Positions 15,125-23,272 of a stretch of 64,000 nt of DNA are shown in pieces. Position 1 is the first letter of the stretch, and each line of letters starts with the position of its first letter. This DNA is from Sideroxyarcus emersonii (GTDB taxonomy: Bacteria > Pseudomonadota > Gammaproteobacteria > Burkholderiales > Gallionellaceae): positions 2,541,001-2,605,000 of the forward strand of contig NZ_AP023423.1 of the NCBI RefSeq assembly GCF_021654335.1. The letters run 5' to 3'. The notes under the pieces are model-generated. The model was given only the letters and a program-made list of their open reading frames with translations, made no database searches and had not been told where the DNA came from. The translations under genes and the position numbers were made by a program.

Positions 15125-15766
15125 TCACTCGCGGTACATCTCCGGAAACCGTTTGCGCAATTCGTACAGCTTGGGCATGTCGTTGAACACGATGTAGGGC
15201 TGATAGGGGTGCAGCGCCAGATAGTTCTGGTGATGCTCCTCCGCCGGATAGAAACTTGGCAACGGCACCACCTGGGTGACGATGGGTGCGGCGTAGGTGC
15301 CTGCCGCGGTCAGTTGCCTGATGTACTCCTGCGCGATTTGCCGTTGCCCGTCGTCGGTATAAAAAATGGCCGACCGATATTGGCTGCCGACATCGGGACC
15401 CTGGCGATCGAGTTGGGTAGGGTCATGGGCCACGCTGAAGAATATCCGCAGCAACTGCCGATAGGATACCTGCGCCGGATCAAAAGTCACCTGCACCGCT
15501 TCGGCATGCGCGGTATCGCCCCTGCTCACCTGCTCATAATGTGCCGTGGCGGCGTTGCCGCCGGCATAGCCGGAGACGACAGCGGCCACGCCCCTGACAT
15601 GCCTGAACACCGCATCCACCCCCCAGAAACAGCCGCCAGCGAACACCGCCGACTGCTCGGCCGCCGACGCCAGCAAGGGCAACGGACACAGGCTGAGCAG
15701 CAGCACCATGGCCCCAAGAATATGTCTGGACACAGCGTGGAATGCAAACATGGGAAACCTCCTCAT
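15125..15766 (-). CDS. msrA: Exported peptide-methionine (S)-S-oxide reductase MsrA
   Basis: 213 residues. A hydrophobic signal region (residues about 14-36, ending LLASAAE) precedes the catalytic domain, so the enzyme should act in the periplasm. The catalytic motif GGCFWG places the nucleophile at Cys46, and downstream GSQYRSAIFY and EEHHQNYL are present. I see no other cysteine in the mature protein, so the usual resolving cysteine is missing and the sulfenic acid must be reduced by a partner, plausibly the thioredoxin domain of the preceding gene. Third gene of msrB-dipZ-msrA, 2 bases after dipZ. Confidence 0.93.
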   Translation of the reverse strand: MRRFPMFAFHAVSRHILGAMVLLLSLCPLPLLASAAEQSAVFAGGCFWGVDAVFRHVRGVAAVVSGYAGGNAATAHYEQVSRGDTAHAEAVQVTFDPAQVSYRQLLRIFFSVAHDPTQLDRQGPDVGSQYRSAIFYTDDGQRQIAQEYIRQLTAAGTYAAPIVTQVVPLPSFYPAEEHHQNYLALHPYQPYIVFNDMPKLYELRKRFPEMYRE

Positions 15767-15768
15767 GG

Positions 15769-17472
15769 TCAGCCGAAGGTGAAAGCGTATGCCTCCGCCC
15801 CTTCATCGAGGAATTCAATGCGGAAGACCCGTGCCTGCGCCCCCCCGCTTTGCCGGATCAGTTGATACAGGCGCTGCTCGCGGATGACGCCGTATCCTGC
15901 CGTATCCACATCGGCGCCGTGGTCCTTGCCCGGCGCCACCCCGTCGATCAGCACCCTGAAGCGCACCGGCTTGCCGTCATGCGAGCCCAGCACCAGATGC
16001 AGGTCGCGCCCCCGGAAGTGGTATTCGATCACCCCGCCGGACGCCCCCAGCACGGCCGCTTCCCTGCCTACCCGCCAGGTGCCGCTCAGCGCCCATTGAT
16101 CGGGCCTGAGCCTGTGCGGCACGCTGTAATGTGCCGCGACATCGTTGCGCATCGCTTCGCGCGAAGAAAAATTCTCCTGCCGCGCATAGCCCAGATAGGT
16201 TTCCGGCGATCGTTCCGCGCTATCTGCTGCCGCAGTCGCACCGCTGCCTTGCACCTGCACTAGCCCATGGTTGGGTGCCAGATCCTGTCGAGCTTCCTTG
16301 AGCAAGCTCTGGATCATCTGTTCGGTCTCGCCGTATGCACCTTCGCCGAAATGCTCATGGCGGATGCGCCCCTGGGCATCGATCAGGTAATGCGCCGGCC
16401 AGTATTCGTTGTGAAAGGCATTCCAGATCGCATATTGATTATCGATCGCCACTGGATAACGGATCCCCAGCTCGCGTAGCGCCTGCGTCACATTAGCGGC
16501 ATCCTTCTCGAAGGCGAATTCGGGCGCGTGCACACCGACGATGACCAACCCTTGCGCGCGATACCTTTCATCCCAGGCCTTCAGGTAAGGCAGGGTGCGC
16601 AGACAGTTGATGCAGGAATATGTCCAGAAATCGACCAGCACCACCTTGCCGCGCAGTCTCTGCCCGTCCAGCGGCGGGGAGTTGAGCCACTGCGTGGCGC
16701 CATCCAGCGCTGGAGCCATGCGCCACGTCGCAGGATCTGCAGCAGGCCGTTGTGCCAACCGCTCGATCAATTGCTGCTCGGCGGCAGCGGTACCCGGTAC
16801 GGAAGATCGCGCGAGGAAACGCGTATCCCAGCCCAGTCCGATGACGACGATGCCCGCCACCACGGCCACGCCAAGCGCTCGCCGCATCCACTCCCCGAAG
16901 CCGAGGCTGAGCTTCATCCAGGCGATCAGCCTGCCGCCGGCCAGCAGTGCCAGGGTCAGCGAAGTGGCGGCACCAGCGGCAAACGTCAACAACAATGCCG
17001 TACTGTAGAGATTCGCGCCATTCAGTGCGGCGCCTGCGAGTACCAGCCCCAATATCGGACCGGCACAGGGTGCCCACAGGAAACCCACTGCGACCCCCAG
17101 CAACATTGAACCACGCAGGCTACCCTGCCGCTCCGCATGTCGTTGCAGGCTCCCGCCCAGTGCAACGAAAGGACGCATCAGGCGCTCCGACCACGCCGGG
17201 AAGATCAGCGCCAGCCCCAGCGCGAACAGCAACGACATCGCCGCGTAACGGCCATACTGGTTCACCTCGACCAGCCATCCCCCGCCCATCGCAGCCAGGC
17301 TCGCCAGTGTCGCGAAGGTCGCCGCCATGCCGAACAAAACCGGCAAGCCGGAACGGCGGAACGGCCCGTCCGAACGAGCAAAGACGAACGGCAGCACCGG
17401 CAACACACAGGGGCTGAGAATGGTGAGCACGCCACCCAGGTAGACCAGCAGGAAGATCGACACGGCGTTCAT
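15769..17472 (-). CDS. DipZ-like thiol transporter: CcdA-type membrane domain, thioredoxin and C-terminal domain
   Basis: 567 residues. Residues about 1-235 form a CcdA/DsbD-beta-like membrane domain with the paired cysteines in LSPCVLPVLPF and WAPCAGPILG, which carry electrons across the inner membrane. Residues about 265-410 are a periplasmic thioredoxin/TlpA-like domain with active site SCINC and WPAHYLID. The remaining part resembles the carbohydrate-binding-like C-terminal domain of DipZ. The start at 17472 overlaps the msrB stop (ATGA). Sitting between msrB and msrA, it is the probable source of reducing power for both, a split analogue of neisserial PilB (Trx-MsrA-MsrB). The functional link is inference. 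Confidence 0.85.
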   Translation of the reverse strand: MNAVSIFLLVYLGGVLTILSPCVLPVLPFVFARSDGPFRRSGLPVLFGMAATFATLASLAAMGGGWLVEVNQYGRYAAMSLLFALGLALIFPAWSERLMRPFVALGGSLQRHAERQGSLRGSMLLGVAVGFLWAPCAGPILGLVLAGAALNGANLYSTALLLTFAAGAATSLTLALLAGGRLIAWMKLSLGFGEWMRRALGVAVVAGIVVIGLGWDTRFLARSSVPGTAAAEQQLIERLAQRPAADPATWRMAPALDGATQWLNSPPLDGQRLRGKVVLVDFWTYSCINCLRTLPYLKAWDERYRAQGLVIVGVHAPEFAFEKDAANVTQALRELGIRYPVAIDNQYAIWNAFHNEYWPAHYLIDAQGRIRHEHFGEGAYGETEQMIQSLLKEARQDLAPNHGLVQVQGSGATAAADSAERSPETYLGYARQENFSSREAMRNDVAAHYSVPHRLRPDQWALSGTWRVGREAAVLGASGGVIEYHFRGRDLHLVLGSHDGKPVRFRVLIDGVAPGKDHGADVDTAGYGVIREQRLYQLIRQSGGAQARVFRIEFLDEGAEAYAFTFG

Positions 17473-18008
17473 GCCTTGTCTGGTCGCGGCACGAAACGCA
17501 ACGCTACTGTATTCATGCAATAGCGCAGTCCGGTCGGCTTCGGGCCATCGTCGAACACATGGCCGAGGTGTGCATCGCACAAGGCACAGCGCACTTCGGT
17601 GCGTGTCATGCCGAACAGGCGGTCTTCGCTGGTGCGTACGTTCTCCGGTGCGATGGGTTGCCAGAAGCTGGGCCAACCGGTGCCGGAATCGTACTTGGTG
17701 CCGGCGTCGAACAAGGCATTGTCGCAGCACACGCAACGGTACAGTCCGGGTTCATGCCTGTCATAGCCTGGCTGCGAGAACGCGCGTTCCGTGCCCTGCT
17801 GGCGCGTCACTTCATAGGCCAGCGGCGACAGGCGCTGTCGCCATTCCGCATCCCTGTTCACTTTGTCCAGGGTGACGCGCCCCAGCGGCTTGCCTGCGTC
17901 GGAGAAGCGCATGATGGTCACTTGCATATTGTTCGTCCCGGCAGAGGCGCGCACAGCATAGGACAGTGCAATGCCGGATAAGGCGGATAGAAATTCCCTG
18001 CGTAACAT
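17469..18008 (-). CDS. msrB: Exported peptide-methionine (R)-S-oxide reductase MsrB
   Basis: 179 residues starting at the ATG at 18008, which has GGAG nine bases upstream. The N-terminus MLRREFLSALSGIALS looks like a twin-arginine-type signal. The MsrB domain has the two zinc CxxC pairs (CVCC at 92-95 and CALC at 141-144), SGTGWPSFW, GHVFDDGPKPTG and the catalytic RYCMN (Cys164). First gene of the msrB-dipZ-msrA unit and preceded by a sequence matching the SigF-type promoter found upstream of bufA. Confidence 0.93.
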   Translation of the reverse strand: MLRREFLSALSGIALSYAVRASAGTNNMQVTIMRFSDAGKPLGRVTLDKVNRDAEWRQRLSPLAYEVTRQQGTERAFSQPGYDRHEPGLYRCVCCDNALFDAGTKYDSGTGWPSFWQPIAPENVRTSEDRLFGMTRTEVRCALCDAHLGHVFDDGPKPTGLRYCMNTVALRFVPRPDKA

Positions 18009-18070: not shown

Positions 18071-18096
18071 TTCGGCTCCCGGCAGAAAATAGTTAC
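18071..18096 (-). promoter_or_regulatory. Putative SigF-type promoter of msrB-dipZ-msrA
   Basis: On the minus strand GTAACT is followed after exactly 16 bases by CGAA, 63 bases before the msrB start. It differs from the bufA and FecR-like promoters only in the last base of the -35 block. The motif is as I recall it for Caulobacter SigF (GTAACC-N16-CGAA). Confidence 0.65.
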
Positions 18097-18135
18097 ACAA
18101 TCTGCACAACCAGAATGACAGGGATCACGGCAGGG

Positions 18136-18843
18136 TCATGACACGAAAGGGGGCGTGCGCCCGACCAGCGCCTCTGCCAGCATCAGCTCTTCATCGGTAT
18201 GGTTGGGCCTGGCCAGCCGGCCTGCCGCATGGATGCACTGGCCCGGCTGCCCTTGGCCGTAGATATAGAGCGGCTTGTCGTGATGCGCAGAGATCACGGT
18301 TTCCCTGCTGGTCGCATCGCCGTTGGCGACGACATCGACTTCGCCATAGCAATCGCAGAAATAGGTGCGTTCCGGGCCCGCCTCCAGATAGACCCCGGTA
18401 CCGCGGATGCCGATGGTCGCGGATGGCGTTTCGATGCGCATGCCTTTGTTGCGCGACACCGACAGCAGTTTGCCCGCCAGCAGCCGAAGACTGCCGATCA
18501 ACAGCGAGCCCGCATCGTTCCCCTCCCTGGGCTGAATCACCAGATGGCTGCCCCCGCGCAACAGCATCGCATGATCGCCGACCACAAAGACGATCTCGCT
18601 GCCCGGCGCCGTCTTGATGGTGTCGCTGGGTCCGATGCGGGTATGCGCATCCACCCTGTTGCCGTTCACCCACACATGGCCGGATACCCGGTAGACCGAT
18701 TGCGTATCCGGCAATCTGGCCGGTGGACTGAAGATCGCCGCCATCGCCTTCGCTGCGGGCAGCAAAGTCGCCAACAGCCCTGCTGCCGCACCTCGCAGCA
18801 AACGCCTGCGCTGCACACTGCCCACCCTGTCGCCTCGATCCAT
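18136..18843 (-). CDS. Exported FecR-like protein, twin-arginine-type signal
   Basis: 235 residues; start at 18843 preceded by GGGAG. The N-terminus QRRRLLRGAAAGLLATLLPAA resembles a Tat signal, with processing near AMA. The body is FecR-like: GHVWVNGNRVDAHTRIG, IKTAPGSEIVFVVGDHAMLL and IETPSATIGIRGTGVYLE. An odd YFCDCYGEV follows, whose two cysteines could bind metal or form a disulfide. It is monocistronic and has its own copy of the SigF-type promoter. It is not next to a TonB receptor, so a FecR role as anti-sigma for iron uptake is unlikely; function unknown. Confidence 0.75.
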   Translation of the reverse strand: MDRGDRVGSVQRRRLLRGAAAGLLATLLPAAKAMAAIFSPPARLPDTQSVYRVSGHVWVNGNRVDAHTRIGPSDTIKTAPGSEIVFVVGDHAMLLRGGSHLVIQPREGNDAGSLLIGSLRLLAGKLLSVSRNKGMRIETPSATIGIRGTGVYLEAGPERTYFCDCYGEVDVVANGDATSRETVISAHHDKPLYIYGQGQPGQCIHAAGRLARPNHTDEELMLAEALVGRTPPFVS

Positions 18844-18932
18844 GCTCGCTCCCCTGGTTGCCACGATTCATCCGTCATGCCGAAAAACATTCCGTCCGCT
18901 GCAGAGCAGCAGCCACCGCAGCCGCATCGTGA

Positions 18933-18958
18933 TTCGCATCAGACAGGAAAAAGGTTAC
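18933..18958 (-). promoter_or_regulatory. Putative SigF-type promoter of the FecR-like gene
   Basis: On the minus strand GTAACC is followed after exactly 16 bases by CGAA, about 90 bases before the FecR-like start at 18843. It shares both blocks and the spacing with the bufA promoter, and the spacers of both begin with a T-run and contain CCTGTC. Confidence 0.72.
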
Positions 18959-19111
18959 ACCGGCAAGTCATGTTGCCGGCAACCGGGTCGGCGTTGCGAC
19001 TATTATTAAATTAATTTCATGTACGACTTCGCCGGCTATCGCATCGGTACAATCTGCCGGAACCTTCAATTCTTCCGCCACCAGATCGCCATCAGCATGG
19101 AGTCGCACATC

Positions 19112-19564
19112 ATGGAATGGAAAAACGAGTACTCGATCGGGATACAGGAGATAGACGACCAGCACAAACTGCTGCTGCGCAGTTTCACTGCCATCGAAGA
19201 GTCCATCCGCTCCGATCAGGGCTGGTCCAACACCCACTATGCCATCCTTGAACTGAACCAGCTGGCCAGCATGCACTTCACCTTCGAGGAAGCGCTGATG
19301 AAGATGTTCGGCTATCCGGAGGCGGAGGCGCATAAACGCGAGCATCAGCGCTTCTTTGCCGAAATGGGCCGCATAGAAAGACACTCGCTGAACAAGTCGG
19401 CCGAGGTCGAGATGGTCCAATTCCTGCGCAGCTGGCTGACCTCACACATACTCGGCAGCGACAGGGGTTATGCCGGACACATCTTTTCCGGCGCACAGGT
19501 CGTCAGGTCCGCTCCCGCTGCAGCAGCCGTTTCAGGGCTGAAGGTGCTGTCCGATATCCTGTAG
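19112..19564 (+). CDS. Hemerythrin-domain protein
   Basis: 150 residues. Four-helix-bundle O2-binding di-iron protein with all seven expected ligands: His18 (DDQH), His55 and Glu59 (HFTFEE), His74 and His78 (HKREH), His112 and Asp117 (HILGSD). Unlike typical bacteriohemerythrins it has a C-terminal extension of about 30 small/hydrophobic residues. I chose the ATG at 19112 because GGAG lies nine bases upstream and homologues begin at this point; a longer frame reaches 19019. It sits between the divergent FecR-like gene and the bufferin operon but has no SigF-type promoter of its own that I can see. Confidence 0.88.
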
Positions 19565-19621
19565 CCTCCCTCGAACTTCCGGCCGGCAGTCGGCGCCCCC
19601 AAACTTTCTGTTCGAGACGAT

Positions 19622-19647
19622 GTAACCTTTCCTGTCCGTTCCCCGAA
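19622..19647 (+). promoter_or_regulatory. Putative SigF-type promoter of the bufferin operon
   Basis: GTAACC at 19622-19627 and CGAA at 19644-19647 are separated by exactly 16 bases and lie about 55 bases before the bufA start. The operon encodes an ECF sigma factor, so this would be autoregulation. It matches the consensus I recall for SigF of Caulobacter. Confidence 0.75.
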
Positions 19648-19701
19648 TCAAGCGATGGAGACGCACTCTCCATCACTTTCAACTTGATAAAGGGAATCAT
19701 C

Positions 19702-19977
19702 ATGAAGACAACTCAAGGCATCCTCTCCGCAGCAATCGGCAGTCTGTTGGTCGTCGGCCTTGCCGGCAATGCAGCTGCCGCAGACATGAAAATGGAAAAA
19801 TGTTTCGGCATCGCCAAGGCCGGCAAGAACGATTGCTCCAGCAACAAGAGCGCGCACGCCTGCGCCGGACAAGCCACCCGGAACAATGATCCGCTGGATT
19901 TCGTGGCCGTTCCCAAAGGCACCTGCGACAAGATCGCCAATGGCACGACCGAGCCGGCCGGCATGATGATGAAATGA
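19702..19977 (+). CDS. bufA: Bufferin-type copper-binding RiPP precursor (DUF2282)
   Basis: 91 residues. Signal peptide of about 27 residues (cleavage near AAA-AD), then a core with four cysteines at positions 34, 45, 54 and 75 in the family pattern [19 protein letters not shown] and PKGTCDKI. Proteins of this DUF2282/bufferin family are modified on cysteines by an MNIO enzyme, exported to the periplasm and bind copper. The ATG has AAAGGGA upstream. The stop overlaps the bufB start, and bufB, bufC, a DoxX protein, a sigma factor and an anti-sigma factor follow. The modification itself is inferred from family knowledge. Confidence 0.92.
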
Positions 19978-20804
19978 TGAGCGCACCCGCAAGCCCGGCG
20001 CTGCCCGATGTCGCAGGCATCGGCTTGCGGGCGCCGCATTACCGGGAAGTACTCGAACTTCGCCCGGCCCTCGGCTGGGTCGAGGTTCACAGCGAGAATT
20101 TTTTCGGCGGCGGTGCGCCATTGCACACGCTGCTGCAAGTGGCACAACACTACCCGGTCAGCCTGCACGGCGTCGGCATGGGCCTAGCCTCGCCCGATCC
20201 GCTGGACACCCGGCATCTGCGCGAGCTGCGCCAGCTGTGCGATGCAGTCGATCCTGCCAGCATCTCCGAACACCTGTGCTGGAATGCGGTTGGTGGAAAG
20301 GTGATCAACGACCTGCTGCCTTTCCCGTATACGCAGCATGCGCTGGCGCATGTCGCCGCTCGCGTGCAACAGGTACAGGATGCCCTGGGACGCAGGATAC
20401 TGGTCGAGAACCTTTCCTTCTATCTGGCGTTCCGCAGCAGCGAGATGCGCGAGGAGGAATTCCTGGCCGAGCTGGTGGCGCGCACCGGCTGCGGCATCCT
20501 GTTCGACGTGAACAACCTGTTCGTCAATGCCGTGAATCTGGGAGTCGATGCGGACGCCTTCATACGCGGCATCCCTGCCGAGGCCGTCGGCGAATACCAT
20601 CTGGCCGGCCCCAGCCTGATCGACGGCTGCCTGGTGGATACGCACAGCGCACCGGTATTCGACGACGCCTGGGAACTGTACGAAACGGCGCTGCGTCACA
20701 TCGGCAGAAGGCCGACGCTGATCGAGTGGGACGTGGATATCCCCGCTCTGGATGTGCTGCAGGCCGAAGCCCGCAAGGCGCAACAGCGCATGGACCGGTC
20801 ATGA
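19974..20804 (+). CDS. bufB: MNIO-family (DUF692) bufferin-modifying enzyme
   Basis: 276 residues of the multinuclear non-heme iron oxidase family (DUF692, related to MbnB), a TIM barrel that oxidatively modifies cysteines of a precursor peptide. Metal-ligand motifs are visible in order: HSENFF (39-44), HGVG (65-68), SEHLCW (98-103), ENLS (145-148), FDVNN (177-181), HLAG (209-212), DTHS (222-225) and EWD (251-253). The start overlaps the bufA stop; the second Met (19977) could also initiate. Substrate is predicted to be the adjacent BufA. Confidence 0.93.
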
Positions 20805-21586
20805 GCGGCTGGACCGACACGCTGGAACGCTTCTCCGATGCCATCCGCACCGGCACTGGATTCGCACCCGGAGAGATCGTTTGCCCGCGCTACCCGGATC
20901 AGCGCGGCATCGAAGTGTATCGCAACAACCACCGCGGCAACCTGCACGACGCCCTGGCCGGTGCTTACCCGGTGATCCGGCAACTGGTCGGCGAAGAATT
21001 CTTCCGCCTGCTGGCCAGGCATTTCATCGAACGGCATCCATCGCGCAGCGGCGACCTGCATCGCTATGGTGCCGGGATGGCGGAATTCCTGGCGCATTTC
21101 GAACCCGTACGTCGCCTCGCCTATCTGCCGGACATGGCAAAACTGGAGTGGGCATACCACCGTGCGTATTTTGCCGCCGATACGGCGCCGTTTGACCTCA
21201 CACGCCTGGCTGGCATCGCACCCGAAGCGTATGCGGCCCTGACCTGGCGCTTGCATCCCAGCTGCACACTGCTCGCTTCCGCGTTCCCCATCATGGCGAT
21301 CTGGCAGGCGCATCAGGACGGCCCCCCCGCCGCGCTCGACATAGATCTGGACAGCGGCGGTGCAAGCCTGCTGGTATGCCGCAACGGCCTGGATGGTGCG
21401 ATCTTCAACATCGCGCCGGACAGCCATTGCTGGCTGGAGCAACTGCAGCAGGGCAGCACGTTGGAAACGGCGACCGAAACGACCTTGTCCGCCCACCCCG
21501 GTTTCGACCTGGCAAGCACGCTGCATCGCTGGCTGGAACTGGGCGTGTTGACCGACTTCGACATGGCACAGGAGGAATCGCGATGA
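20801..21586 (+). CDS. bufC: BufC, DUF2063 partner of the MNIO enzyme
   Basis: 261 residues. The N-terminal half (IEVYRNNHRGNLHDALAGAYPVIRQLVGEEFF, with Y-RN) matches the DUF2063 putative DNA-binding/RiPP-recognition fold. It is always paired with DUF692 enzymes and is believed to present the precursor to the enzyme. The C-terminal half is a poorly conserved alpha/beta region. ATGA overlaps with bufB upstream and with the DoxX gene downstream indicate translational coupling. Confidence 0.9.
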   Translation: MSGWTDTLERFSDAIRTGTGFAPGEIVCPRYPDQRGIEVYRNNHRGNLHDALAGAYPVIRQLVGEEFFRLLARHFIERHPSRSGDLHRYGAGMAEFLAHFEPVRRLAYLPDMAKLEWAYHRAYFAADTAPFDLTRLAGIAPEAYAALTWRLHPSCTLLASAFPIMAIWQAHQDGPPAALDIDLDSGGASLLVCRNGLDGAIFNIAPDSHCWLEQLQQGSTLETATETTLSAHPGFDLASTLHRWLELGVLTDFDMAQEESR

Positions 21587-22032
21587 ATGCACTGCACAAC
21601 GCTTTGCAACTCTATTACCGCACCAGCAGTCTGCCGGCACTGGCCAGCCCGGTACTGGATGCCAGCCTGCGCCTGTTCCTGGCGAGCGCGTTCTTCCGAT
21701 CCGGCCTGACCAAGATCCAGAACTGGGACAGTACGCTGTACCTGTTCCGCGAAGAATACCGGGTGCCGCTGTTGCCACCGGACTTCGCCGCCTGTCTCGG
21801 CACCGGTGCCGAACTGGCATTCCCCGTGCTGCTTGCGCTCGGTCTGTTCGGGCGCTTTGCGGCACTGGGACTGTCCATCCTGAATGCGGTCGCCGCCTAT
21901 TCGTACTACGACCAGCTGGGCGAGGCAGGACTTAACCAGCACCTCTACTGGGGACTGCTGCTCGCCGCATTGCTGGTGCACGGGCCGGGCAAATGGTCGC
22001 TGGACGCATGGCTGGAACAACGCTGCCGCTAG
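21583..22032 (+). CDS. DoxX-family membrane protein of the bufferin operon
   Basis: 149 residues with four hydrophobic segments of the DoxX/DUF4870-like type, including FFRSGLTKIQNWDSTLYLFREEY, typical of DoxX proteins in bufferin (gig-type) operons, and HLYWGLLLAALLVHGPGKWSLD at the end. Probable role: membrane electron or redox partner; not established. A strong AGGAGG precedes the start and the frame overlaps bufC by 4 bases. Confidence 0.88.
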   Translation: MNALHNALQLYYRTSSLPALASPVLDASLRLFLASAFFRSGLTKIQNWDSTLYLFREEYRVPLLPPDFAACLGTGAELAFPVLLALGLFGRFAALGLSILNAVAAYSYYDQLGEAGLNQHLYWGLLLAALLVHGPGKWSLDAWLEQRCR

Positions 22033-22043
22033 GGAGACTGCGC

Positions 22044-22637
22044 ATGTCGACGATGGCGGGTTACTATTCGCCTGTGTACTTAACGAATGGCGATCAGGTG
22101 ACGGATAGCGGCGACAACCTTGCTGCCTTGATGCAGCGGTCCCTTGGCGGCGACTCGCAAGCCTATGCCATGCTGCTGAAAGAGACGGCACGACTGCTGC
22201 GTCCCTTTCTGCTGAAGCGTCTATACTCGAGCAACGAAGTCGACGACGTGCTGCAGGAGATCCTGATCTCCGTGCACAAGGCGCGCCATACCTACGACGG
22301 CGAGCGGCCGTACAAGCCTTGGGTGTATGCCATCGCAAAATTCCGCCTGCAGGATCATCTGCGCGCGCATTACGCCGACCGGCTGCACGACGCCGAGGAT
22401 CTGTCCGAGCTGGAAGAAGTACTGCCGGATGACGCCGTCGAACCCGGTTTCGACTACGAATCCATCCGCGCCGAGGTCGCCAGGCTGCCGGAGAAACAGG
22501 CAACCATCCTGCAATTGATGCACCACGATGGTTACACTGCCAGGGAAGTCGCCGCCAGGACCGGCATGACCGAATCGGCGGTCAAGGTCGCGGCGCACCG
22601 CGCCTACAAAGTGTTGAGAATGAGACTGGAAAGATAA
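22044..22637 (+). CDS. ECF sigma factor, SigF/NrsF type
   Basis: 197 residues. Region 2 is seen as SNEVDDVLQEILISVHKARHTYDGERPYKPWVYAIAKFRLQDHLR (sigma-2.2/2.4), and region 4 as LPEKQATILQLM, GYTAREVAARTGMTESAVKVAAHRAYKVLRMRL. The ATG at 22044 has GGGAG seven bases upstream. Its stop overlaps the start of the NrsF-type anti-sigma gene (TAATG). It is the likely reader of the GTAAC(C/T)-N16-CGAA promoters at 19622, 18958 and 18096. Assignment to the SigF group rests on its NrsF partner and the promoter motif. Confidence 0.9.
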   Translation: MSTMAGYYSPVYLTNGDQVTDSGDNLAALMQRSLGGDSQAYAMLLKETARLLRPFLLKRLYSSNEVDDVLQEILISVHKARHTYDGERPYKPWVYAIAKFRLQDHLRAHYADRLHDAEDLSELEEVLPDDAVEPGFDYESIRAEVARLPEKQATILQLMHHDGYTAREVAARTGMTESAVKVAAHRAYKVLRMRLER

Positions 22638-23272
22638 TGGCCAATATCGACGACCTTGTTGCGGATCTCGCACAGCAAGCAGGTACGGTGAAGCCTGCGC
22701 CGCATCCCTACAGGCTGAGCCTGCAATGGATAGGCGCCGCCGCCGCCTACCTCGCGCTGTCGCTCGCACTCTCCGGCGTGCGGCCCGACCTGGCGGAAAA
22801 GCTGCACAACATCTGGTTCGCTGCCGAGATCCTTTCCCTGCTCGCCGTCTTCATCGTCACCTCGCTGAGTGCCGCCCTGCTGGCCTTTCCCGACCTGTAC
22901 CAGAAGCGCCACCTGGCGTTCGCACCGATACTGCCGTTCCTGCTGTTCCTGCTGGTCATGGCGCTGGCCTGGCATGCCGACAGCCCGCCTGCGCCGTTGC
23001 CCATCCACAGCTTCGAATGCACCGCCGGCATCACGCTGATGGCATTGCTGCCTGCGGCGTGGACGTTCTACTCGATGCGCCGCTACGCCAGTACGCACTA
23101 CCGGCTGGCGGGCAGCGTCGCACTGCTTTCCGCTTTCAGCGTGGGTGCCCTGTGGCTACGGCTGCATGAAGCGAACGACTCCATCGTGCACGTCATCGAA
23201 TGGCACTACCTGCCGATGCTGGTCATCGGCCTGCTGGGCCTGTGGCTGGGGAAAGTGCTGCTCAAATGGTGA
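22637..23272 (+). CDS. NrsF-type (DUF1109) membrane anti-sigma factor
   Basis: 211 residues with about six transmembrane segments after a 25-residue cytoplasmic N-terminus (MANIDDLVADLAQQ). NrsF proteins hold their ECF sigma factor at the membrane and release it on metal or thiol stress. The first conserved cysteine is present (Cys128, in FECTAGITLM), but the position equivalent to the second is Glu178 (LRLHEAND, where relatives have a Cys after the His). A single-cysteine NrsF would sense differently. Overlaps the sigma gene by one base. Confidence 0.87.
   Translation: MANIDDLVADLAQQAGTVKPAPHPYRLSLQWIGAAAAYLALSLALSGVRPDLAEKLHNIWFAAEILSLLAVFIVTSLSAALLAFPDLYQKRHLAFAPILPFLLFLLVMALAWHADSPPAPLPIHSFECTAGITLMALLPAAWTFYSMRRYASTHYRLAGSVALLSAFSVGALWLRLHEANDSIVHVIEWHYLPMLVIGLLGLWLGKVLLKW

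Follow-up and report, generated by a model that had tools for sequence, protein, structure and literature searches.

Three copies of a single promoter-like motif lie close together in the genome of Sideroxyarcus emersonii, within a window of 64,000 nucleotides. They raise the question of whether a bufferin operon, a methionine-sulfoxide repair gene and a FecR-like gene belong to one regulon, and which sigma factor would read it. In Caulobacter, GTAACC-N16-CGAA is the site of SigF, established in part through 5'RACE and lacZ fusions (PMC3511200), and the ECF16 consensus promoter has a T ahead of GTAAC, tGTAACc-N16-CGAA (PMC3420878). The Caulobacter SigF-NrsF regulon is induced by copper, chromate and cadmium (PMC3511200, PMC8224329). 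Copper induces a bufferin and methionine-repair regulon there, and sigF mutant cells are sensitive to copper (PMC8224329).

A pattern search of the window found all three sites exactly where the earlier note had placed them, on the same strands and with a spacing of 16. The buf operon site (19622-19647, + strand) has its -35 GTAACC at 19622-19627 and, after N16, its -10 CGAA at 19644-19647, with the bufA ATG 54 nt downstream. On the minus strand, the site of the FecR-like gene (18933-18958) has GTAACC at 18958-18953 and CGAA at 18936-18933, 68 nt ahead of a GTG at 18864 and 89 nt ahead of an ATG at 18843. The site of the msrB-dsbD/trx-msrA set (18071-18096, - strand) has GTAACT at 18096-18091 and CGAA at 18074-18071, with the ATG (18008) 62 nt downstream. 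The T of the ECF16 consensus precedes GTAAC at all three sites, which fit that consensus apart from the GTAACT of msrB. The likeness to the Caulobacter SigF site, stated in the earlier note, is borne out by the published GTAACC-N16-CGAA (PMC3511200).

GTAACY-N16-CGAA has three matches in the window, all in promoter position, and no other gene there carries it. A search of the whole genome (one contig of 2,738,141 bp) returned the same three sites and nothing else, all inside 1,577 bp. The backward-read control pattern has seven matches in the genome against three for the motif, so the number of motifs is not raised and their placement is the telling feature. The probability that three random matches would fall within 1,577 bp is ~1e-6 (analytic), with no case in 2 million draws. 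For the window alone, 100 dinucleotide shuffles gave a mean of 0.01 matches, and none reached three. Between 14.9 and 24 kb of the window no sigma-70-like promoter was predicted, against 2.3 (sd 1.7) in shuffles, which lends weak support to a SigF-type reading. A small hairpin, GGAGA-CGCAC-TCTCC, lies directly after the bufA -10 box (19657-19671, + strand), and similar inverted repeats are visible by eye at the same spot in four relatives (L094-L097). Another inverted repeat, TGCCGGCAA...TTGCCGGTG (18981-18958, - strand), reaches the fecR -35 box and may be an operator or due to chance.

The buf operon runs in the order bufA, bufB, bufC, doxX, ECF sigma, nrsF on the plus strand, with small gaps or overlaps. 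The three components of a Buf1 cluster were all recognized by Pfam and NCBIfam: a bufferin precursor of the DUF2282 type (bufA, 19702-19977; PF10048, 84 bits), a BufB-type MNIO maturase (bufB, 19977-20804; MNIO_BufB, 362 bits, cut-off 310) and a DUF2063 partner (bufC, 20801-21586; PF09836, 85.2 bits). A DoxX-family membrane protein follows (21583-22032; PF07681, 64.9 bits). The ECF sigma gene (22044-22637) starts 11 nt after doxX and encodes regions 2 and 4 only (Pfam Sigma70_r2 and r4_2). It overlaps by one base with nrsF (22637-23272), the gene of a variant membrane anti-sigma factor that matches PF06532 with 150.1 bits (cut-off 26.8) and reaches 35.9 bits, below the cut-off of 300, on the NCBIfam NrsF equivalog. 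The earlier note's view that the sigma and NrsF genes sit in the buf operon and would make the regulon self-controlled is supported: both lie at the operon end, and positive feedback follows from that layout.

The promoter that had been assigned to msrB is correctly placed, but the scope given to it was too narrow, as a tight set of three genes follows (18008 to 15125, - strand). The first, msrB (17469-18008), encodes an exported protein with the twin-arginine start MLRREF, read from the sequence (TIGR00357, 185.4 bits, cut-off 113, for the ORF from 18041). Next comes a fusion of a DsbD-type membrane domain, a thioredoxin-like domain and Thioredoxin_10 (15769-17472; Pfam, with DsbD_TM at 24.6 bits under the cut-off of 27.1), followed by msrA (15125-15766; TIGR00401, 176.6 bits, cut-off 108) with a Sec-type start likewise read from the sequence. 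Given the twin-arginine msrB and the Sec-type msrA, the set is probably an operon for methionine-sulfoxide repair in the periplasm, in which the fusion protein would likely supply electrons to the Msr enzymes. The third transcript would carry the FecR-like gene (18136-18864, - strand; ORF from GTG 18864, ATG 18843). The fecR and bufA promoters are divergent and have a bacteriohemerythrin gene (19019-19564, + strand; Pfam Hemerythrin, 48.6 bits) between them. In L094 and L095 no such gene is present at that place, and bufA and fecR are directly divergent.

Conservation was surveyed in 150 genomes of Gallionellaceae, in which presence of the sigma gene was defined by a match at E 1e-20; 57 genomes have it. 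The broad pattern GTAACY-N16-CGAA occurs in 146 of the 150 and so, without position or T-tract, does not separate genomes. Around the sigma genes themselves (loci L094-L150) it is present in 53 of 57, mostly facing msrB, bufA, fecR or a peptide gene, and is missing from L109, L110, L117 and L148. All three promoters and the gene order are kept in the syntenic relatives L094 and L095, the motif stands ahead of bufA in L094-L097 and ahead of fecR in L094, L095 and L114, and the promoters are conserved where the flanks have diverged. In eight species of the genus (the window, L094, L095, L098, L101, L103, L114 and L135), the motif stands 61-62 nt ahead of the msrB ATG.

Alignment of 83 different sites from the window and 60 loci revealed a T-tract after the -35 box, with T in 92-93% at spacer positions 2-4; 29 sites from canonical loci did not show it. 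From it we derived the sharper motif GTAACY-N-TT-N13-CGAA, while gene-level counts use the broad pattern. The sharper motif was found in 56 of the 57 genomes that have the sigma gene and in 22 of the 93 that lack it (Fisher 8.8e-22, kinship of genomes ignored), a test that is not fully independent because the T-tract was spotted in the same set of genomes. The one exception (G073) has the broad motif ahead of bufA. Totals were 100 sharper motifs against 42 backward controls in sigma genomes, and 25 against 84 in genomes without the sigma gene. Equal frequency of the motif in random DNA, which the earlier note had named as grounds against a regulon, is thus not what the sharper motif gave over the 150 genomes. 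In the genome of the window, the sharper pattern with one mismatch gave 10 extra sites against 18 for the control, and we claim no further members from this looser search. Each of the 10 overlaps an ORF of at least 100 aa, a weak criterion against promoters because the fecR site itself (L002) is also overlapped, by an antisense ORF. Neither the strict nor the one-mismatch search of the whole genome gave any sign of a larger regulon.

The association holds for individual genes, which were tallied by hand for msrB, bufB and fecR. Sigma genomes have the broad motif within 500 bp of an msrB orthologue (at least 65% identity) at 32 of 41 places, the other genomes at 0 of 11 (Fisher 2.8e-6, kinship ignored); two of the nine sigma-genome places without it have GTAACG instead. 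For bufB, the motif lies within 800 bp at 25 of 32 places with the sigma gene, leaving seven buf operons without it, against 2 of 8 places (at least 60% identity) without the sigma gene (p 0.008, kinship ignored). The count of 25 includes G053. This tally leaves out G116 and G070 (short contigs), a broken third copy in G047, and, from the 2 of 8, G028 and G017 (50% and 45% identity, no motif). Two genomes with no detected sigma gene, G117 (91% complete) and G113 (64%), nevertheless carry the motif ahead of bufA. Single relatives have other genes behind it. A Candidatus Nitrotoga contig has the motif ~90 bp ahead of a gene for a chlorite dismutase-domain protein (L137 6637-7509, - strand; PF06778, 94.7 bits). 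The genes behind the motif at L112 11427-12491, L100 6600-7973, L149 8237-8929 and L184 9462-10130 (all + strand) have as products a catalase-domain protein, a cytochrome b561 and molybdopterin oxidoreductase pair (MsrPQ-like) and a protein that matches Spondin_N weakly, with 20.3 bits against a cut-off of 24, the L184 gene resembling a homologue by eye.

The layout of the window is the minority form. The sigma gene lies inside a buf operon only in the window and in L094-L097 among 58 loci, so that self-activation by layout is uncommon in the family; the same layout occurs elsewhere in the phylum (e.g. L199, L200 and L226). Autoregulation through a motif facing the sigma gene itself was rejected: none of the 58 loci (the window and 57 others) has one within 400 bp, strict or loose. 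The motif near the sigma gene faces away from it in 45 of the 58.

The FecR-like protein earned its name only in part. Its predicted fold resembles that of the periplasmic domains of FecR-type regulators: the model (pLDDT 80.4) has its best PDB matches in such domains (4m0h, 4m0n and 6ovk; E 2e-5 to 1e-4, TM 0.44-0.50). Its Pfam FecR score of 21.7 bits is just below the cut-off of 24, and 7 of 12 family members match at E 0.001. The N-terminus is a Tat-type signal, and no N-terminal anti-sigma domain was matched by Pfam or NCBIfam in the 12 members, so nothing marks the protein as a FecI-FecR transducer. C163, C165, H187, H188, D189 and H215 are invariant over the 12 sequences and would suit metal or redox chemistry. 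In the fetched loci, a subset of all fecR places, 13 fecR genes of at least 63% identity stand in sigma loci. Four lie directly behind the motif at 44-96 nt (the window, L094, L095 and L114), four behind a methionine-rich peptide gene (L098, L101, L102 and L103) and five further down motif-led gene sets (L125, L130, L135, L141 and L150). No motif was found within 500 bp of four fecR homologues elsewhere in sigma genomes (G030, G036, G110 and the short-flanked G083).

A short exported peptide with MSKDAM-type repeats is encoded behind the motif in at least 10 relatives; it resembles the methionine-rich peptides associated with such sigma factors in Brucella and in perchlorate islands (PMC8315932, PMC4623255). 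A search with one query peptide found it in 13 of the 150 genomes, all with the sigma gene (13/57 versus 0/93); K/M-rich variants in L131, L132 and L139 were missed by this search and are not counted. The genome of the window has no match to the query. bufB is present in 1 of the 13 peptide genomes versus 30 of the 44 other sigma genomes (p 2e-4), and within the genus of the window in 0 of 8 versus 8 of 13 (p 0.007), shared ancestry being ignored in both comparisons. Bufferin and the methionine-rich peptide thus appear to be alternative modules of one regulon, and their near-exclusive occurrence suggests that they do related jobs.

Taken together, the motif, its positions, its conservation, its co-occurrence with the sigma gene and the identities of the genes support the one-regulon reading. 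The three sites are very probably promoters of a single sigma factor of the ECF16/SigF type, whose gene lies near the end of the buf operon, which NrsF would hold and stress would release to start three transcripts. Most likely, three matching switches would turn on one small defence programme made up of enzymes for protein repair, a peptide that binds metal and an exported protein. From the sequence we infer the transcription from the three sites, the operons and the inducing signal. At rest, NrsF would keep the sigma factor at the inner membrane. Periplasmic stress, in the form of an oxidised periplasm, reactive chlorine or excess copper, would alter the periplasmic face of NrsF and free the sigma factor. 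The freed sigma factor would then start the bufA-bufB-bufC-doxX-sigma-nrsF transcript, with positive feedback, the msrB-dsbD/trx-msrA transcript, for repair of methionine in the periplasm with a dedicated source of electrons, and the transcript of the FecR-like exported protein.

Other readings of the three sites must be weighed against this one. They could be chance matches or repeated DNA without promoter function; the backward pattern occurs seven times in the genome, and single matches are not rare. Against this stand the clustering (~1e-6), the promoter positions, the conservation with diverged flanks and the association with the sigma gene, which leave that reading with very little credibility. 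The promoters might be read by some other ECF sigma factor in the cell, the sigma gene of the buf operon being just one of its targets. G093 (94% complete) and G097 (80%) have no sigma match at 1e-20 and carry the motif ahead of another msrB-msrA pair (43-47% identity; L152 7378-7403 and L153 7161-7186, both + strand), and the Caulobacter sigF promoter may also be read by another, unidentified sigma factor (PMC3511200). We consider this improbable, as motif presence tracks the present sigma gene over the 150 genomes and the motif is identical to the site published for this sigma group.

A narrower proposal accepts the buf and msrB promoters as the ones that matter and treats the FecR-like gene as a passenger, its promoter contributing read-through transcription to msrB. 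From the fecR stop to the start of the msrB promoter is ~40 nt, no terminator-like site was found between the two genes in the window, and msrB lacks its own motif downstream of fecR in L102, L130 and L150. The gene is also placed at several positions of sigma-F gene sets in relatives. Yet all 13 fecR genes of the sigma loci stand behind a motif, and none of nine other homologues (at least 45% identity) in genomes without the sigma gene has one within 500 bp, which makes a passenger role unlikely.

How NrsF would sense stress in this regulon is a further question. The anti-sigma factors that have been studied carry a cysteine pair 50 residues apart, C131/C181 in Caulobacter and C129/C179 in Bradyrhizobium and Brucella (PMC3511200, PMC3420878, PMC8315932). 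Changing either cysteine raises basal expression in Caulobacter (PMC3511200), C179 is required for release in Bradyrhizobium (PMC3420878), and how exactly ECF16 factors are activated is described as unknown (PMC6180224). In all 57 NrsF rows of the family alignment, the second cysteine (Caulobacter C181) is replaced by Glu (E178), and H124, C128, H185, W189, H190 and Y191 are invariant. Across 70 NrsF sequences there is no variation at E178, H185 or H190 and very little at H124. Lacking one of the two key cysteines, this NrsF may sense differently. Its relatives in named contigs are mostly from Gallionella, Sideroxydans, Sideroxyarcus, Nitrotoga or Gallionellaceae, some being named only as Nitrosomonadales or Gammaproteobacteria. 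A collection of plasmids gave no match, and titles and abstract openings of the open-licence literature held no report of a one-cysteine NrsF or of this regulon in Gallionellaceae.

The phylum was sampled through PF06532, found in 80 of 397 genomes at 86 places. Eighty of these were aligned together with 14 family rows; the six left out were G001, G000 (represented by the row of the window) and four places that are second copies or fragments. Eight rows were open on both strands and the first strand was used; five aligned well, and L173, L174 and L175 (wrong-strand reading) were left out, giving a tree of 91 of the 94 rows with a midpoint root only. It contains 56 rows with C178 and without both histidines, six with C178 together with H185 and H190, 18 with E178-H185-H190 in a single clade (100/99) and 11 with H178 in a single clade (99/91). 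A well supported branch (100/99) sets the E178 and H178 clades apart from the rest, and a long-branched C178 row, L194, falls with them with weak support. Position 185 is Met in 6 of the 11 H178 rows (L195, L196, L199, L200, L233, L236, L192, L197, L198, L201 and L202), possibly a copper-type ligand set. The AF2 model of the window NrsF (pLDDT 91.9) has six helices of at least 17 residues, taken to be transmembrane, and three shorter ones. H124-C128, E178 and H185-H190 lie at helix ends on one side, which would be periplasmic if the N-terminus is cytoplasmic. The Caulobacter cysteines are placed periplasmically, and the polar residues of the window protein would lie on the same side. A search of the model against the PDB gave no match at E 0.001.

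A metal or haem site in NrsF may reasonably be proposed, making it a histidine-based, possibly metal-binding sensor, and the window protein would presumably sense through H124, C128, E178, H185 and H190. As a tentative extension, a large branch of NrsF may have swapped the cysteine-pair switch for a periplasmic metal (or haem) site of His, Glu and one Cys. Metal occupancy or metal-catalysed oxidation would then switch the regulon in this branch, and the peptide module would be exchangeable, with bufferin in some species and a methionine-rich sacrificial peptide in others. The change may instead have been neutral for the sensing principle, with C128 alone sufficing and the histidines being structural, a proposal to which we give slightly less than an even chance. 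It accords with the invariance of C128 in the 57 family rows and with Caulobacter, where single Cys-to-Ser changes raise basal expression and the response to dichromate is retained (PMC3511200). It sits less well with the invariance of E178, H185 and H190, and near-invariance of H124, over 70 sequences, and with an adjoining clade that has His instead of Cys at 178.

Judged by five features, the window system would work like SigF-NrsF systems. The sigma factor with regions 2 and 4 only, the adjacent NrsF/DUF1109 anti-sigma factor, the six transmembrane helices (membrane topology predicted) and the tGTAACc-N16-CGAA promoter were found, and the two cysteines 50 residues apart were not, C128 being present and residue 178 being Glu. 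With Caulobacter it shares the promoter, the sigma-NrsF pair, bufferin-type operons and periplasmic methionine-sulfoxide repair (PMC3511200, PMC8224329). It differs in that repair there is by MsrPQ instead of msrB-DsbD/Trx-msrA, sigF has its own promoter instead of lying inside the buf operon, NrsF has two conserved cysteines instead of one, and no FecR-like target was found in the parts of these reports drawn upon. Bradyrhizobium EcfF-OsrA is likewise an ECF16 system, autoregulated, with MetSO reductases and a DsbD/thioredoxin pair in one regulon (PMC3420878). Its motif is GTAAC(g,a)-N14-15, its anti-sigma factor has two cysteines, C179 being the one needed for release, and bufferin, unlike in the window, was not found among its targets in the consulted sections of that paper. 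Brucella BcrS-AbcS and the SigF-NrsF of perchlorate islands combine a pair of the sigma-NrsF type with a methionine-rich peptide and Msr enzymes against hypochlorite (PMC8315932, PMC4623255). In relatives of the window, a peptide of this kind follows the same promoter; the window genome itself has bufferin and no match to the queried peptide. Described Buf1 clusters share DUF2282, MNIO, DUF2063 and DoxX with sigma and NrsF genes (PMC12452194), and no mention of SigF, methionine sulfoxide or FecR was found in that paper. The modelled periplasmic fold resembles that of FecR in FecI-FecR cell-surface signalling, from which the window protein differs in its Tat-type start and in having no anti-sigma domain that could be found. 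Bufferin and methionine repair under SigF-NrsF are thus already known from Caulobacter; what the window adds to the known regulon is the FecR-like target and the msrB-DsbD/Trx-msrA operon, and the sensor change in NrsF and the peptide exchange are new questions.

The cysteine model of sensing rests on two-cysteine proteins, and the existence in nature of a clade that lacks the second cysteine and has a different set of invariant polar residues allows the mode of sensing to be tested through comparisons and mutants. Across the family the targets are a bufferin or methionine-rich peptide, periplasmic Msr and a FecR-like protein, joined in single relatives by a chlorite dismutase-domain or catalase-domain protein. 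This list of targets points to a joint defence against copper and oxidants in iron- and nitrite-oxidising bacteria.
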